This document shows positions 43,763-53,281 of a stretch of 64,000 bases of DNA, piece after piece. This stretch comes from Haloplanus natans DSM 17983 (GTDB taxonomy: Archaea; Halobacteriota; Halobacteria; Halobacteriales; Haloferacaceae): positions 1,472,938 through 1,536,937 of the forward strand of contig NZ_KE386573.1 of assembly GCF_000427685.1 (NCBI RefSeq), given 5' to 3'. The translations under genes and the position numbers were made by a program. Position 1 is the stretch's first letter, and every line of letters starts with the position of its first letter. The notes beneath the pieces were generated by a model that did no database searches, was not told the DNA's origin, and saw only the letters and a list, made by a program, of their open reading frames with translations.

Positions 43763-44707
43763 TCAGTCGGCTCCGGGGCCGATCTCACTCCGGTCGGGCA
43801 GATCCAGCGCCTCGCGGAGGTCGTACTCCTCGCGTGTGACGATGTAGAGCACGTCTTCGACGATGGTGAGGAGTTCGGGGAGTTCCCGGACTACGAGGTA
43901 GGTGACGCCGACGAGGGCGACGACGGCCAGTACCTGACTGATCACCCGATCCGAGAGGTAAAAGGAGACCTTGTAGGGGTCGGTGCCGCCGAACAGAAAG
44001 AGCACCTCGTCGACGAACCACTGCATATACTGCTTGCCGAACATCAGCCCGATGAACGTCGTCCGGGCGATGTTGAGGACGTAGATGACCGGAACGGCGA
44101 TGGCGAGAGCACGGAGCTTCCGCCCCAGGGGCGCCTCGACGGCGGCGATCAGGCCGACGAAGATGGCGATGCTCCCCAGCCCCGTACAGGCGAGGATGAT
44201 CGAAAAGAGGATGATGTGCCCGCCGTCGGTGACGAATTTGAACGTGTTGAGATAGCCCTGGTCGCCCTCGACGAGCGTCGGGGTGTAGCCGAGCAGTTCC
44301 ATCGCCCACTCGGTCTGGGCCGTGGTGTGTGAGATGAGGACGTGACGGGGCGAGGGCAGCGAGAGGCCGCCGACCGTGAGCGCCGGAATCGTCTCGAAGG
44401 GGAGGTAGACGACGCCCATGACCGCGATGGCCCGCGAGAGGACGAACAACGAGTCACGGCCCCGATAGAGCAGGTAGCCGACGTACAGCGAGGCAGGGAC
44501 GGCCGCGAGCGAGAGAAACCCCTCGACGAAGCTCTTCTGGACGAACGCGAAGTGGGGGACGAGGGCGGCCCAGAAGGCCGCGAAGACGCCCCACGCCGAT
44601 ATCATCACCGTGCGTGCGTACTCGCTCTCTCGCCACCGGAGGAGCGTGCCGACGAGAAAGAGCGCGACGACGGCCCATGCCAGGGCGTCGGTGAGAGGGC
44701 CAGCCAT
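43763..44707 (-). CDS. artA: Archaeosortase A
   Basis: Membrane transpeptidase that removes the C-terminal PGF-CTERM signal of surface proteins such as the S-layer glycoprotein and links them to lipid. The 314-residue protein has about eight helices, the catalytic cysteine in IILACTGLGSIAIF, the arginine in VLNIARTTFIGLMFG and the second conserved basic residue in LSDRVISQV. The start at 44707 (MAGPLTDALAW) is preferred to one four codons upstream. No PGF-CTERM substrate is encoded in the window. Confidence 0.93.
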   Translation of the reverse strand: MAGPLTDALAWAVVALFLVGTLLRWRESEYARTVMISAWGVFAAFWAALVPHFAFVQKSFVEGFLSLAAVPASLYVGYLLYRGRDSLFVLSRAIAVMGVVYLPFETIPALTVGGLSLPSPRHVLISHTTAQTEWAMELLGYTPTLVEGDQGYLNTFKFVTDGGHIILFSIILACTGLGSIAIFVGLIAAVEAPLGRKLRALAIAVPVIYVLNIARTTFIGLMFGKQYMQWFVDEVLFLFGGTDPYKVSFYLSDRVISQVLAVVALVGVTYLVVRELPELLTIVEDVLYIVTREEYDLREALDLPDRSEIGPGAD

Positions 44708-44797
44708 TGACCGACACAACGGTCCCGACCGATAAATTCCTTGTCGTTCGTACTGTCGGCCGTGAGTCAGTAGCTCGAAGCGGGACGGCCGACGGTA

Positions 44798-48652: not shown

Positions 48653-49213
48653 ATGCTCCCCGACACACGCAACCGTGTCCCGGAACTCACGGCCGTCCTC
48701 TCGCTCGTGTCGCTGGCGCTCGTGTTCGGCGCGGCCCTCGGCGCCGTCCCGCGTGGCGCCATCCCGCGTGCGCCCGACGCGGTACTGTCGGCCATCCCCC
48801 ACGTCAACGCCGTCATCAGCACGCTCGCCGTCGTGACCATCCTGGCCGGCGTCGTCTTCGCCCGCCGACGCGAGTTCGACAAACACCGCGTCATGATGCT
48901 CTCGTCCGCCGCGCTCTTTGCCGTCTTCCTCGTCCTCTATCTCTACAAGGTGGCGCTCGAAGGGCCGGCCGAGTTCCCCGGCCCCGACGCGATCTACCGG
49001 CAAGTGTACCTCCCGCTTCTCGCCATCCACATACTCCTCGCTATCGTCTGTCTCCCCCTCCTCTACTACGTGTTGTTGCTGGCGGCGACCCGCCCCGTCT
49101 CGGCGCTCGTCGACACCGCCCACGCCCGCGTGGGGCGGGTGGCGGCGAGCCTCTGGGTGATCTCTTTCGTCCTCGGAAATGTGGTCTACGCGCTGTTGTA
49201 CGTGGTGTACTAG
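48653..49213 (+). CDS. DUF420 membrane protein
   Basis: A 186-residue protein with five to six membrane helices: HVNAVISTLAVVTILAGVVF, RREFDKHRVMMLSSAALFAV, and HILLAIVCLPLLYYVLLLAA. The conserved His residues in IPHVNA, DKHRVMM and AIHILLA are typical of DUF420, a family with heme-copper-oxidase-like neighbourhoods. It opens the group of genes around nitrite reductase, so a role in copper or heme assembly is possible. Its end overlaps the convergent gene by 4 nt. Confidence 0.85.
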   Translation: MLPDTRNRVPELTAVLSLVSLALVFGAALGAVPRGAIPRAPDAVLSAIPHVNAVISTLAVVTILAGVVFARRREFDKHRVMMLSSAALFAVFLVLYLYKVALEGPAEFPGPDAIYRQVYLPLLAIHILLAIVCLPLLYYVLLLAATRPVSALVDTAHARVGRVAASLWVISFVLGNVVYALLYVVY

Positions 49214-49485
49214 TCGGCGTACAGGGAGTAGACGATGACTCCGAAGCCGACGAGGGTGAGCGCGCTTTCGATAACCACCGACTGCGCGAGCGATAGCGAC
49301 GTGAACTGGTGGCCAACGCCCGCGAGGAGAGCGCCGACGGTGACCAGTCCGAAGCCGATAGCGAGCGCCCGGAGCGACCGCGCCCCGGTCCGTCGGTGTG
49401 CCTTGAACGAAAGGAAGGTGATGAGACTCCCCAGAAAGAGCGTCCCGGTCTTAACCGCGACGAGAGCGATGTCGAGGTGACTCAT
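49210..49485 (-). CDS. Small membrane protein (DUF7521-like)
   Basis: A 91-residue protein with three hydrophobic helices and the basic loop SFKAHRRTGARSLRA. It begins 4 nt inside the end of the regulator gene upstream, giving a regulator-membrane pair like the one at 47296-48131 in reversed order. Family common in haloarchaea near winged-helix genes; function unknown. Confidence 0.75.
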   Translation of the reverse strand: MSHLDIALVAVKTGTLFLGSLITFLSFKAHRRTGARSLRALAIGFGLVTVGALLAGVGHQFTSLSLAQSVVIESALTLVGFGVIVYSLYAD

Positions 49486-49859
49486 GTCTCCTTGCGCACC
49501 TCCCCCCACAGCGACGCGAGTCGTTCGTCCGCGCTCCGGGCCGGACGGCCGACCGACACGTCCAGGCTTCCCTCCTCGGTCAGTCCGATTTCGACCTGCT
49601 CGAAGTCGACCCGATACCGGGTCGCGTGGTGACCGTCGGATCGGATCTCCGTGCCCTCCGCGAGCAGCGACGCCTCCGTCAGTAGGTCCAGTTTTCGGTA
49701 GGTCGTAGACATGGGAATCTCACACTCCTCCGACACCTCGCTCGCCGTCATCGGTTCGTCGAGGTGCTGGATAATGGTCCGGCAGTCGGGGTCGTCGAGC
49801 GCGTCGAGAACCGACTGCAGGTCGGGCGGATCGTCGCCCGACAACGGATCGCGCACCAT
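49482..49859 (-). CDS. Winged-helix (ArsR-like) transcription regulator
   Basis: A 125-residue regulator: LQSVLDALDDPDCRTIIQHL, EPMTASEVSEECEIPMSTTYRKLDLLTEASL. The Cys residues in DPDCRT and SEECEI could sense redox or metal, a weak hint. The start at 49859 is preferred to 49883. It is divergent from the beta-grasp gene at 49984, with the CGAA-N4-TTCG site between them, so it may be regulated by that site or control the same promoter. Confidence 0.85.
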   Translation of the reverse strand: MVRDPLSGDDPPDLQSVLDALDDPDCRTIIQHLDEPMTASEVSEECEIPMSTTYRKLDLLTEASLLAEGTEIRSDGHHATRYRVDFEQVEIGLTEEGSLDVSVGRPARSADERLASLWGEVRKET

Positions 49860-49930
49860 ACGCCACCTCACCGAGGCAGTCACTTATACTACGCGTTGGC
49901 GAGTTCTGCGGCCGGACGCTCGTCGGGGAC

Positions 49931-49942
49931 CGAACATGTTCG
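49931..49942. promoter_or_regulatory. CGAA-N4-TTCG operator (NarO-like)
   Basis: CGAACATGTTCG is a perfect inverted repeat matching the CGAA-N4-TTCG motif reported for the haloarchaeal anaerobic regulator NarO. It ends just before ACATAGCTTTTCGG, a TATA-like box whose spacing to the ATG at 49984 (about 30 nt) fits a leaderless start. Placement directly upstream of TATA is that expected for an activator. Confidence 0.6.
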
Positions 49943-49983: not shown

Positions 49984-50388
49984 ATGAGCACGACAGCCGA
50001 ATCCGAATCCACGACCGACAGGACGACCACGACGGTCCATCTGCGCGCGACGGGACACGTCCGGGACGCGATGGAGCAGCCCCACCAGGAGTTCACGTTC
50101 GAGGGCGACACCCTGCGTGATCTCCTTGAAGCTTTTTTCGAGGAGCGACCGGATCTCGCGGAGATGCTGATCGCCGAGACGGAGGCGGAGGCGACGACCG
50201 ACGGGTGGGCCAAACCCCCCGAGAACCTGCCCGGCACCTGGCACAAGAACCCCGAGGGCGAACAGACGAAACCCTACGCTCGGGTGTTGGTCAACGGGAA
50301 GTTCAACGAAGTCCTCGACGGCTTCGACACGAAAATCGATGACGGCGACCGCGTGAGCTTCGTCTATCCTTTCATTTTCTGTTGCTGA
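49984..50388 (+). CDS. Beta-grasp (MoaD/ThiS-like) protein ending Phe-Cys-Cys
   Basis: A 134-residue protein with a Thr-rich start, then TVHLRATGHVRDAMEQPHQE, EFTFEGDTLRDLLEAFFEERPDLAEML, an insert of about 35 residues with WAKPPENLPGTWHKNPEGE, then YARVLVNGKFNEVLDGFDTKIDDGDRVSFVYPFIFCC. The YARVLVNG and DGDRVSFVYPF parts are the MoaD/ThiS fold, but the C-terminal Gly-Gly used for thiocarboxylate formation is replaced by Cys-Cys. It lies between a NarO-like site and nirK, so it may handle copper or sulfur for denitrification enzymes. The TGA starts TGATACTG. Confidence 0.8.
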   Translation: MSTTAESESTTDRTTTTVHLRATGHVRDAMEQPHQEFTFEGDTLRDLLEAFFEERPDLAEMLIAETEAEATTDGWAKPPENLPGTWHKNPEGEQTKPYARVLVNGKFNEVLDGFDTKIDDGDRVSFVYPFIFCC

Positions 50389-50538: not shown

Positions 50539-50550
50539 CGAACCAGTTCG
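50539..50550. promoter_or_regulatory. Second CGAA-N4-TTCG site, upstream of nirK
   Basis: CGAACCAGTTCG matches the NarO motif. It lies 80-91 nt before the nirK ATG, just after a TATA-like CGCTTTTTACG (50521-50531). In that position it would overlap the start region of that promoter, so either a downstream promoter (for example around TTCATACGG at 50587) is the regulated one or the site acts differently. Confidence 0.5.
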
Positions 50551-50629: not shown

Positions 50630-51745
50630 ATGTTCGATACGACCCGACGCCGGGTGATGCAGGCACTCGGCATCGGTGGGACGGCGGCGGTGGCAGGGTG
50701 CAGCGTGGAGGCCCCGACGGCCTCTGAAACGACGACGGAGCGGCGACAGGTCGAGCAAACGTCGACGCCGACGGTCGACCAGGTGGCGGCCGATCCGACC
50801 GACATTCCCGATCCGATCGATCGGAGTCAGCCGACGACCCACGAGGTGACGCTCACGATGGAGGAGGTGACCGCCGAAATCGAGCCCGGAGTCACCTTCG
50901 ACTTCATGACCTTCGGCGGTCAGGTCCCCGGCCCGATGATCCGCGTTCGGCAGGGCGACACGGTCGATCTGACCGTCGAGAACTCCGAGGGGAACGCCCT
51001 CCCACACAACGTGGACCTTCACGCCGTCTACGGAACCGGCGGCGGGTCCGTGGCGACGACTGCCGCGCCCGGGCAGCAAAACGCCATGACGTTTCAGGCG
51101 ACCTATCCGGGCGCGTTCATCTACCACTGTGCCGTGCCGAACCTCGATATGCACATCAGTGCCGGTATGTTCGGCATGATCCTCGTCGAGCCGAAAGGCG
51201 GGTTGCCGGCGGTGGACCGCGAACTCTACTTCGGCCAACACGAGGTGTACACCGACGGCGAAGTCGGTCAAGAGGGTAAGCACAGCTTCGACATCGAATC
51301 GATGAAAAACGAGAACCCGACGTACGTCCTCCTGAACGGGGAGAAGTACGCGTGGGCGGCTGCCAACCGCGGTCCCCTCGAAGTCCAGCAGGGCGACCGC
51401 GTCCGGGTGTTCATGGTCGACGGCGGCCCGAACTACTCCAGCAACTTCCACCCCATCGGCAACGTCTGGAAGCGGGCCTACCGCGACGGCGGCGTTCCCG
51501 AGGACGGGGACTTCGACGCCTACGCCGACAAGAACATCCAGACGGTGAAGGTGCCGCCGGGAAGCTGCATGATCGGCGAGATGGACACGCCGGTCCCCGA
51601 GCGGATCAAACTCGTCGACCACGCGCTCAGCCGCGTCGCGCGGCGGGGGATGCTCGCCGAAGTCGACGTCCTCGGCGAGGAGCGCGAGGAAATCTTCGAC
51701 CCCGACGCCGGCGGAACGAGTCACGAGGGGCCGCAGTACGCCTGA
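50630..51745 (+). CDS. nirK: Copper-containing nitrite reductase NirK
   Basis: Reduces nitrite to nitric oxide outside the membrane. The 371-residue protein has a Tat-type lipoprotein start TRRRVMQALGIGGTAAVAGC, then two cupredoxin domains: LPHNVDLHAVYG, AFIYHCAVPNLDMHISAGMFGMILVEP (type 1 copper His, Cys, His, Met and type 2 His) and the second domain with SSNFHPIGNVWKRA supplying the type 2 His. KGGLPAVDRELYFGQHEVYT links the domains. Length matches haloarchaeal NirK. No nor or nos genes are in the window. Confidence 0.95.
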   Translation: MFDTTRRRVMQALGIGGTAAVAGCSVEAPTASETTTERRQVEQTSTPTVDQVAADPTDIPDPIDRSQPTTHEVTLTMEEVTAEIEPGVTFDFMTFGGQVPGPMIRVRQGDTVDLTVENSEGNALPHNVDLHAVYGTGGGSVATTAAPGQQNAMTFQATYPGAFIYHCAVPNLDMHISAGMFGMILVEPKGGLPAVDRELYFGQHEVYTDGEVGQEGKHSFDIESMKNENPTYVLLNGEKYAWAAANRGPLEVQQGDRVRVFMVDGGPNYSSNFHPIGNVWKRAYRDGGVPEDGDFDAYADKNIQTVKVPPGSCMIGEMDTPVPERIKLVDHALSRVARRGMLAEVDVLGEEREEIFDPDAGGTSHEGPQYA

Positions 51746-51799
51746 TCGGTCGGTCGGCGTTCCCGGCCCGTTATGTTCGTGGGCGCCGAGGGTTCGGGC

Positions 51800-52447
51800 A
51801 TGCCCACGGCCCGACTCGCGGTCACACTCCCCGCGGACATCTGGATCGCGGATCTCTCGACGCGGTACCCGGACGCAACCTTTCGCGTGCTGGCAGCGCT
51901 TCCCGACGCGGACACCGGCGTCGGCCTGGTCGAAATCGTCGCATCCGACGTGGACGACGTGCTCGCTCGCCTCGACGGGACCGACGGCGTCCGGGTGTTC
52001 GAGACCCTCTACCGTGGCGACGACCGGGCGCTCGTGCAGTTCGAGACCGACGATCCCCTGTTGCTCATGTCGATTCGGAACTCGCGGGCGCCGTTCGAAC
52101 CGCCGGTCACCATCGTCGACGGCGTGGCCGACATCGAACTCACCGCCCCGCGCGAGCGGCTGTCGTCGCTCACCGACCAGTTCCGGGCGCTCGGTCTCCA
52201 GTTCGACGTCCGCTCCATCCGCACCACCATCGACTCGGAGTCGGTGGTGAGCGACGGTCAGCGACGACTGATCGAGACGGCCGTCGCGGAGGGGTACTAC
52301 GACACGCCCCGGGCCTGTACGCTGACGGAACTCGCCGAGCAGCTCGGGATCGCAAAATCGACAGCGAGTGAACGCCTGCACCGTGCAGAGGGGGCGATCA
52401 TCCGGGCGTTCGTCGCCGACGGTGCGGCGGGAAGCGAACGGCGCTAG
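51800..52447 (+). CDS. HTH-10 (bacterio-opsin activator type) regulator
   Basis: A 215-residue regulator: N-terminal sensor-like domain (MPTARLAVTLPADIWIADLS, LYRGDDRALVQFETDDPLLL) and C-terminal HTH-10 with QRRLIETAVAEGYYDTPRAC, LAEQLGIAKSTASERLHRAE. No Cys cluster of the NarO/DmsR kind is present. ATG at 51800 lies about 27 nt after CGTTATGTTC, a TATA-like box; the longer frame from 51773 would begin inside it. Its position right after nirK suggests local control of denitrification genes. Confidence 0.85.
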   Translation: MPTARLAVTLPADIWIADLSTRYPDATFRVLAALPDADTGVGLVEIVASDVDDVLARLDGTDGVRVFETLYRGDDRALVQFETDDPLLLMSIRNSRAPFEPPVTIVDGVADIELTAPRERLSSLTDQFRALGLQFDVRSIRTTIDSESVVSDGQRRLIETAVAEGYYDTPRACTLTELAEQLGIAKSTASERLHRAEGAIIRAFVADGAAGSERR

Positions 52448-53196
52448 TCCTCGTGACTCGGCTCGCCGTGTTCGGCGCCCGCCTCCGACGGCGGCCCACC
52501 GGTCTTATCACGGAGTAACAACACGAGACCGAAGACGATGGGGGAGAGAAATGCCGCGACGAGGGAGCCACCGACCACCAACGACATGGTCACACCGCCC
52601 TGATTGAGGCCGCCGCTGCTGCCGTCGCCCTCGCTCCCGCCGCTGCCGCTGCTACCGGTTTCACCACCACTCCCACTGCCACCGCCACCACCGCCACCGC
52701 TCCCGGCGACGACTTCGGCACCGTCGGGAACGGCGTCGCCGACGACGACGACGCCTTTCATCCCGAGCGCCTTGTGGGGTTGGCAGAAGTACTTGACGGC
52801 GCCACTGGACTCGAACGTGTGTTCGAACGTGAAGCCCGCTTCCTGCTTCAGTTCGCTGGAGAAGTTACCGGAGTCGGCCGCGACGTTGTGGACGCCGCCC
52901 TCGCCCGTCCACTCCCAGACGACGGTCGTTCCGGGATCGACCTGGATGGCCGCCGGGCCGAAGCCGAACGCGCCCTGATTGGCCTCGACACCGACTTCGA
53001 CGGTCACTTCGCCCGACCCCGTGTGGTCGTGGACGCCGTCGTAGTTGCTCACGTCACTCATCCAGCCACCGAACGGCCCGGACTGTGCCACCGCCGTTCC
53101 GGCCGCCCCCGTACCCACGAGTCCAGCCCCGACGGCACCGGCACCGGCCCGTAGCAGCCGTCGCCGTCCCAGCCGAGCGTCGCGTTCCTCGCTCAT
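52444..53196 (-). CDS. hcy: Halocyanin-type blue copper protein with membrane anchor
   Basis: Electron donor, probably for NirK. The 250-residue protein has a Tat signal (GRRRLLRAGAGAVGAGLVGT), one cupredoxin domain with NYDGVHDHTGSGEVTVEVG, VVWEWTGEGGVHNVAADSG and YFCQPHKALGMKG (copper His, Cys, His, Met), a Gly/Ser linker, and a C-terminal membrane helix (VVGGSLVAAFLSPIVFGLVL) with a charged cytoplasmic tail. Anchoring is by this helix, not by a lipobox. Stop overlaps the HTH-10 gene by 4 nt. TCAAAAATATTGCC upstream is a TATA-like box. Confidence 0.92.
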   Translation of the reverse strand: MSEERDARLGRRRLLRAGAGAVGAGLVGTGAAGTAVAQSGPFGGWMSDVSNYDGVHDHTGSGEVTVEVGVEANQGAFGFGPAAIQVDPGTTVVWEWTGEGGVHNVAADSGNFSSELKQEAGFTFEHTFESSGAVKYFCQPHKALGMKGVVVVGDAVPDGAEVVAGSGGGGGGGSGSGGETGSSGSGGSEGDGSSGGLNQGGVTMSLVVGGSLVAAFLSPIVFGLVLLLRDKTGGPPSEAGAEHGEPSHED

Positions 53197-53281
53197 TGTC
53201 GCTTGGCCGTACACACGACCCCCTCAAAAATATTGCCGGTTTCGCGTCCACTTGCCGCTTTATCGGTCATCCGGCCGACGG

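Follow-up and report, generated by a model that had tools for sequence, protein, structure and literature searches.

Many haloarchaea encode a protein that retains the fold of the MoaD/ThiS/SAMP sulfur carriers, has an invariant penultimate cysteine where those carriers have their C-terminal diglycine, and almost always lies behind the palindromic operator of denitrification genes whatever genes surround it. Presence of the gene tracks NO reductase (NorB) and a CGCGG/radical-SAM module, and the copper nitrite reductase NirK adds nothing beyond these. We tentatively read the protein, with a probability of about 0.4, as a carrier or adaptor that would act in the cytoplasm through a single thiol in aid of nitrogen-oxide respiration, under the control of this operator and serving a client in the NO/nitrogen-oxide module. 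The gene was encountered in a stretch of 64,000 nucleotides from Haloplanus natans DSM 17983 (hereafter the window), with the following features.

43763-44719, minus strand: archaeosortase A (TIGR04125, 344.8 bits), a few kb from the nirK cluster
48653..49213, plus strand: DUF420 membrane protein (PF04238)
49482..49883, minus strand: divergent HTH_20 (ArsR-like) regulator (PF12840), with the operator region in common
49931..49942, unstranded: operator CGAACATGTTCG of the denitrification regulon, 41 bases upstream of the ATG, an exact match to CGAAYATDKTYG
49984..50388, plus strand: Cys-tailed MoaD/ThiS/SAMP-like protein, 134 aa, C-terminal PFIFCC, no export signal seen
50368..50385, plus strand: tail residues 129-134 (PFIFCC) of that protein; Pro129, Phe130 and Cys133 invariant in 125/125 distinct homologues
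50539..50550, unstranded: second CGAA-N4-TTCG site CGAACCAGTTCG, 79 bases upstream of the nirK ATG
50630..51745, plus strand: nirK, copper nitrite reductase (TIGR02376, 370.7 bits, cut-off 296.3)
51773..52447, plus strand: HTH_10 (bacterio-opsin-activator type) regulator (PF04967), a candidate NarO-like factor
52444..53214, minus strand: halocyanin, a blue copper electron carrier (TIGR03102, 146.9 bits)

Fold, tail and range of the family

The reading frame at 49984-50388 is confirmed as a real gene with a MoaD/ThiS/SAMP fold; its product ends in DGDRVSFVYPFIFCC, followed by the stop codon. The product scores 24.2 bits against Pfam ThiS (gathering score 22.5) over residues 40-129, in a match interrupted by an insert at about residues 65-95. 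The archaeal moaD_arch model (TIGR01687; 35.7 bits, cut-off 49.5) and the SAMP1 model (NF041918; 31.7 bits, cut-off 60) match it below their cut-offs and are its only NCBIfam matches at E<=0.01. AlphaFold, given 60 sequences, yields a beta-grasp model (mean pLDDT 73.2, pTM 0.66), with low confidence at the tail (pLDDT <50 for residues 130-134) and a poorly modelled insert. Comparison of this model with MoaD, SAMP and Urm1 structures gives Z of 8.5-10.6, about 10 for MoaD and SAMP1, the best alignment being with MoaD 6jbz_B (VIA Z 10.6, 83 residues, 2.0 Å), and Foldseek leads to SAMP1 of Methanosarcina acetivorans (E 2.5e-06). Five other ThiS-family proteins in the same genome exceed the Pfam cut-off; four of them carry a diglycine at or near the C-terminus, and the fifth lacks one there. 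Three ThiS/MoaD proteins of this genome (L217, L218 and L220) end in GGRA, GGA and GGS, and the residues after their diglycine would need to be removed before activation.

Cys133 and the loop residues Thr23, Gly24 and His25 are present in all 125 distinct sequences, while position 134 varies (116 Cys, 6 Leu, 3 Val). Cys22 (Ala in the window protein) occurs in 107 and Cys102 in 53 of the 125, and in two sequences Cys133 is the sole survivor among Cys22, Cys102, Cys133 and Cys134. Given these counts for positions 133 and 134, the cysteine end is not a product of chance. Among 20 further loci, 17 tails have the same form, with Phe now also seen as last residue, and the hydrophobic tail pattern across the family is PF[MIL][FY]C[CLVF]. 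The three exceptions, which have lost the stop codon (L201), are truncated (L204) or end in FMFRC (L205), have operators with no fewer than 3, 2 and 3 mismatches, respectively, and look broken. At L206 the tail is present, the match begins only at residue 48 and the best operator has 3 mismatches.

On a tree of 142 intact rows (leaving out L201, L204, L205 and the additional copies at L129, L133 and L082), the last residue changed between Cys and Leu, Val or Phe at least 8 times and Cys133 not once. A dithiol is therefore not required, and the essential feature appears to be one penultimate cysteine. At two Halorientalis-type loci with nirK as the following gene, L054 and L089, the tail has a single Cys and ends in Leu. 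Cys134 is retained in most lineages, and in these the dithiol could matter. Three loci carry a Cys-tailed and a Cys-less paralogue side by side, the second copies, in tandem or nearby, lacking the FCx tail (FLFAPRS at L129, EPLTC at L133 and FLFAP at L082); two of the three Cys-less copies have a CGAACGGGTTCG site upstream.

The family is matched in 245 of 391 Halobacteria genomes and in 58 of 86 genera. When 392 genomes of the phylum were searched with a profile, 76 matched: 50 lie inside the class, nearly all with full-length matches, and the matches of the 26 outside it are all weak (E 8e-6 to 1e-3), cover only part of the protein and stop before the tail; no full-length relative outside Halobacteria was found among these 392 genomes. 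A scan of named genomes yielded 162 relatives, the best 80 of which are all haloarchaeal, Haloarcula and Natrinema species among them, and a scan of viral contigs gave 23 pattern matches and no relatives. Judged by its features, the family is almost certainly arCOG00539, described by Makarova and Koonin (2010; PMC2948915) as Halobacteria-specific, of beta-grasp fold and ending in a double-cysteine motif; the restriction to the class holds here, as does the CC end in 116 of the 125 distinct sequences. The single sentence that gives the motif there names no function, regulon, neighbours or penultimate-Cys rule. Within the open-licence literature searched, the identifier appears in no further paper, C-terminal or double cysteines in ubiquitin-like archaeal proteins lead only to the 2010 note as relevant, the combination of nirK, haloarchaea and MoaD leads to one paper whose matching passages are silent on this gene, and no report of the gene as a denitrification regulon member was found. 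The fold and, since 2010, the CC end were thus already known. As far as that literature shows, the rule on the penultimate Cys, the nearly universal presence of the operator, the family's uncoupling from NirK and its tie to NorB and the CGCGG/radical-SAM module are new.

Operator and gene neighbourhoods

Denitrification promoters of Haloferax mediterranei are the source of the motif CGAAYATDKTYG; mutating it there changed the nor and nosZ promoters, nosZ being hit hardest by a change of the first base, and had no significant effect on nirK and nar (PMC10062603). A CGAA-X4-TTCG palindrome has been reported at the denitrification genes and ahbD of H. volcanii, whose nirK is said to need it (PMC5746218, citing Hattori 2016), and the operator is common to nirK, nor, nosZ and ahbD in haloarchaea (PMC10062603, PMC5746218, PMC11218638). 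Upstream regions of the Cys-tailed gene were taken from 160 loci, leaving 139 once duplicates, regions that were too short and loci without the gene were set aside. A site with at most one mismatch occurs in 129 of them (57 exact and 72 with one mismatch; five more have two and five have three). Sites of this quality precede 80 of 1086 neighbouring genes, or 19 of 772 after recurrent named clusters are set aside, and occur in 9 of 417 Markov-resampled sequences. An earlier count on an overlapping set gave 115 of 120 homologues, and a stricter pattern at called gene starts gave 39 of 51 homologues versus 59 of 627. The MoaD/ThiS-like fold, the Cys-Cys end in place of diglycine and the NarO-like operator, all of which the initial annotation had read from this DNA, are well supported by these results, and the gene is a putative member of the denitrification (CGAA-N4-TTCG) regulon by virtue of its promoter-proximal site.

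The position of the operator is also constant in the Haloplanus group, with the match starting at -53 in six loci besides the window. The second palindrome, ahead of nirK, is found at a similar place in six of the seven other Haloplanus-group loci in which nirK adjoins the gene (the exception being L094), and it is absent at L033, in genome G135, where nirK does not adjoin. G135 has no strong NirK match, yet it has kept the Cys-tailed gene and its operator. Because the Haloplanus nirK, which in the window starts 241 bases after the stop codon of the Cys-tailed gene, has its own CGAA-N4-TTCG site, the two genes probably form separate transcription units. Three exact copies of the palindrome CGAAYATRTTCG are present in the window's genome. 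One is the operator in the window, one (L176) separates an HTH_10-like regulator from a 764-aa NorB-like gene, both named by sequence likeness, and one falls within a long ORF (L175).

Neighbourhoods were compared over 140 loci sampled from the best-scoring matches (60 stretches, 58 of them with the gene, and 80 named loci), and 20 extra loci that were divergent or differently placed were added. Neighbouring genes were called with a codon-score script, and most clusters were named from family-profile matches of representatives, except 'AOR' and 'NorB', which were named by reading sequences. Within 4 kb of the gene in the 140 loci lie a radical SAM protein (43), an HTH_10 regulator (33), the c9 membrane protein (30), CGCGG (27), NirK (21), a ccoN-like protein (19), c30 (17), DUF420 (14), AOR (14) and NorB (12). 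At least one member of the denitrification set is found in 96 loci, the AOR set in 19 and neither in 35, and NorB is the divergent upstream neighbour, with the intergenic region in common, in 10. The radical SAM representative fits TIGR04053 best among TIGR families, not heme b synthase, and no sulfurtransferase is found among the 18 named recurrent neighbour clusters. Adjacency changed repeatedly on the 142-row tree (NirK 7, CGCGG 11, NorB 6 and c30 6 times) while the operator stayed, which indicates that the gene moves between settings and retains its operator.

A role with AOR and the tungsten cofactor was considered on account of the 14 AOR loci and was rejected, as the AOR-side genes have no operator (AOR 0/13, c28 0/17, c29 0/11, c30 0/2 and the Gly-Gly MoaD neighbour 0/17), so that the adjacency looks incidental. 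The gene's neighbours at Haloarcula/Halorussus loci such as L046, L109 and L127 are a tungsten-type AOR, a MoaD/SAMP with Gly-Gly and a group of small proteins of haloarchaea. The small protein c29 at these loci itself ends in Gly-Gly and resembles arCOG06308 (TBP-like fold) as described in PMC2948915.

About 140 kb from the Cys-tailed gene, the window's genome has a locus (L191, G000:C7 at ~1.664 Mb) with a ccoN-like membrane protein, c7, a TIGR04053-type radical SAM protein, CGCGG, a DUF2249-type protein and several CGAACACGTTCG sites. The locus is a compact unit, and its CGCGG is the strongest companion of the family by presence and absence. A PDB search with the ccoN-like membrane neighbour gave no matches at E<=1.

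Companions across genomes

Across 391 genomes, the gene and NirK occur together in 153, the gene alone in 92, NirK alone in 55 and neither in 91, which gives an odds ratio of 2.75 (p 2e-6) when kinship is ignored; counting 10 genomes with partial NirK as positive changes the figures to 163, 82, 55 and 91. Thus, 92 of the 245 gene-bearing genomes have no NirK over the cut-off, and 55 of the 146 genomes without the gene have one. The genome-level presence totals (245, 208, 127 and 99) agree with the search tallies. In a set of 194 genomes, the corresponding counts are 101, 23, 26 and 44 for CGCGG and 83, 41, 16 and 54 for NorB, with odds ratios, again ignoring kinship, of 7.4 and 6.8. Under the same proviso on kinship, the NirK odds ratios inside the CGCGG strata are 0.82 and 0.95, those for CGCGG inside the NirK strata are 7.4 and 8.6, the NorB odds ratio among CGCGG-positive genomes is 3.6, and a joint logistic model of gene presence (n=194) has coefficients of 1.56 for CGCGG, 1.28 for NorB and -0.38 for NirK. 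Eighteen of the 124 gene-bearing genomes have none of NirK, NorB and CGCGG; two of these, G036 and G048, carry broken copies. The NarG model TIGR01580 hit none of the 194 genomes at E<=1e-100 and is probably unfit for the haloarchaeal enzyme.

These counts separate two parts of what the initial annotation had proposed. Its link to denitrification stands, on the near-constant operator and the tracking of NorB and CGCGG. Its dedicated partner of NirK does not: the cysteine end is the rule across the family but nirK neighbours are not, and we reject a NirK-specific role on the co-occurrence and neighbourhood counts. The proposal had an evident appeal, as a Cu(I) chaperone holding copper between its two terminal thiols would suit a gene that adjoins nirK in the window (and lies within 4 kb of it in 21 of 140 loci) under a common type of operator, and Cu(I) could plausibly be bound by a Cys-Cys end. 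However, besides the genomes in which either gene occurs without the other, G135 included, and the association that vanishes inside the CGCGG strata, the second Cys is Leu at L054 and L089, directly beside nirK. Given the repeated loss and gain of this residue, we also reject a dithiol copper site as the essential feature. NirK has an export signal and none is visible in the Cys-tailed protein; the N-terminus of the window NirK (RRR...AAVAGC) is what we take to be a twin-arginine (Tat) lipoprotein signal. A copper chaperone for NirK is accordingly very improbable and, with lipidation and classical conjugation, among the least supported readings.

A proposed thiol carrier, its rivals and known systems

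We favour a carrier or adaptor because an immovable cysteine on a mobile tail is combined with a fixed loop, the lack of an export signal and constant coregulation. The protein would descend from MoaD/ThiS/SAMP sulfur carriers, with the C-terminal diglycine replaced by the invariant penultimate cysteine and a last residue of Cys, Leu, Val or Phe. Its own CGAA-N4-TTCG operator would switch the gene on with the denitrification genes, and the protein, having no visible export signal, would work in the cytoplasm. There, Cys133 on its flexible hydrophobic tail, beside the Thr-Gly-His loop that ubiquitin topology presumably places near the tail, would reversibly bear a cargo and hand it to a client in the module, which may be NorB, the CGCGG protein or the AhbD/TIGR04053-type radical SAM enzyme. 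Persulfide sulfur is our first guess for the cargo because of the DsrC precedent, a guess that is somewhat unlikely to be right. The fuller picture, in which diglycine chemistry was abandoned and the penultimate-Cys tail adopted for a DsrC-like persulfide relay in a constant regulon member serving the NorB/CGCGG/radical-SAM module, we hold to be rather unlikely. Several points count against a carrier, namely the lack of a sulfurtransferase among the 18 named clusters, the 18 of 124 genomes without any of the three companions, co-occurrence tests that ignore kinship, the retention of Cys134 in most lineages, the Cys-less tandem paralogues, and the poor modelling of the tail and the insert.

Two other readings are serious rivals. 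Cys133 may be nitrosated or oxidised, so that the protein would buffer, sense or repair NO damage; gene presence tracks NorB even among CGCGG-positive genomes, the two genes are divergent from one intergenic region in 10 of 140 loci, and a lone essential Cys near an invariant His would fit. Yet we know of no precedent for such a role in the ubiquitin fold, and the strict PF-x-[FY]-C-x tail suggests docking to a partner rather than bulk reactivity, which makes this reading unlikely. Less probable still is a protein that hands over heme or Fe-porphyrin, liganded by His25 and Cys133, for NorB and for heme synthesis under anaerobic conditions (AhbD/TIGR04053-type). Both residues are invariant, 43 of 140 loci have a TIGR04053/AhbD-type radical SAM gene within 4 kb, and ahbD of Haloferax volcanii, which has the same palindrome, is needed only for anaerobic growth (PMC5746218). 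Against it, the radical SAM representative is not best matched by heme b synthase, no known heme-binding motif was recognised in the Cys-tailed protein, and the genus in which ahbD was tested, Haloferax, is missing from the best 80 of the 162 relatives. The hydrophobic tail would also suit lipid attachment at the Cys end and a membrane-tethered ubiquitin-like adaptor, in parallel to eukaryotic Rab proteins, whose CC ends are prenylated; to our knowledge, however, archaea have no enzyme for prenyl-type CC attachment, and the named neighbour clusters suggest none, so we regard lipidation as highly improbable. Ordinary SAMP/MoaD function after trimming of the tail would be in keeping with the common fold and superfamily, but Gly-Gly is absent from the last ten residues of every homologue tail examined, trimming would remove Cys133, among the most constant residues, and separate Gly-Gly members exist in the genome; this last reading is extremely improbable.

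Diglycine is the defining chemistry of the ubiquitin/MoaD superfamily, and here a fixed cysteine replaces it in a class-wide family. The swap, together with a respiratory operator kept through gene moves, may represent a second way of using the ubiquitin fold. Archaeal denitrification would gain an unstudied component, and the correction of the tempting copper link to NirK points experiments to the NO/radical-SAM side.

Compared with SAMP1, SAMP3 (HVO_2177), MoaD, ThiS and Urm1, the Cys-tailed family has a similar fold (Z ~8.5-10.6) and the conserved VNG...DGDRV core, and in an alignment by eye its Cys pair falls within about one residue of the position of their Gly pair. It differs from them in having no diglycine, in a conserved insert (GW and LPGTW-KNPEGEQT) and in the denitrification operator, and because the diglycine is missing, the usual acyl-adenylate/thiocarboxylate chemistry is not expected. 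The DsrC/TusE proteins have a fold that differs from the ubiquitin-like one. Their likeness to the Cys-tailed protein, by analogy only, lies in an invariant penultimate Cys (125/125 here), a mobile tail and a second Cys that is dispensable in some lineages; the persulfide known there is a guess for the Cys-tailed protein. DsrC is described as persulfurated solely at its penultimate Cys, and its TusE-type relatives as usually missing the second (PMC3397948); the DsrC/TusE profile TIGR03342, as numbered in that source, is not among the NCBIfam matches of the Cys-tailed protein at E<=0.01. With the haloarchaeal denitrification regulon and its NarO-type palindrome, the Cys-tailed gene has in common both the operator sequence and its promoter-proximal place.
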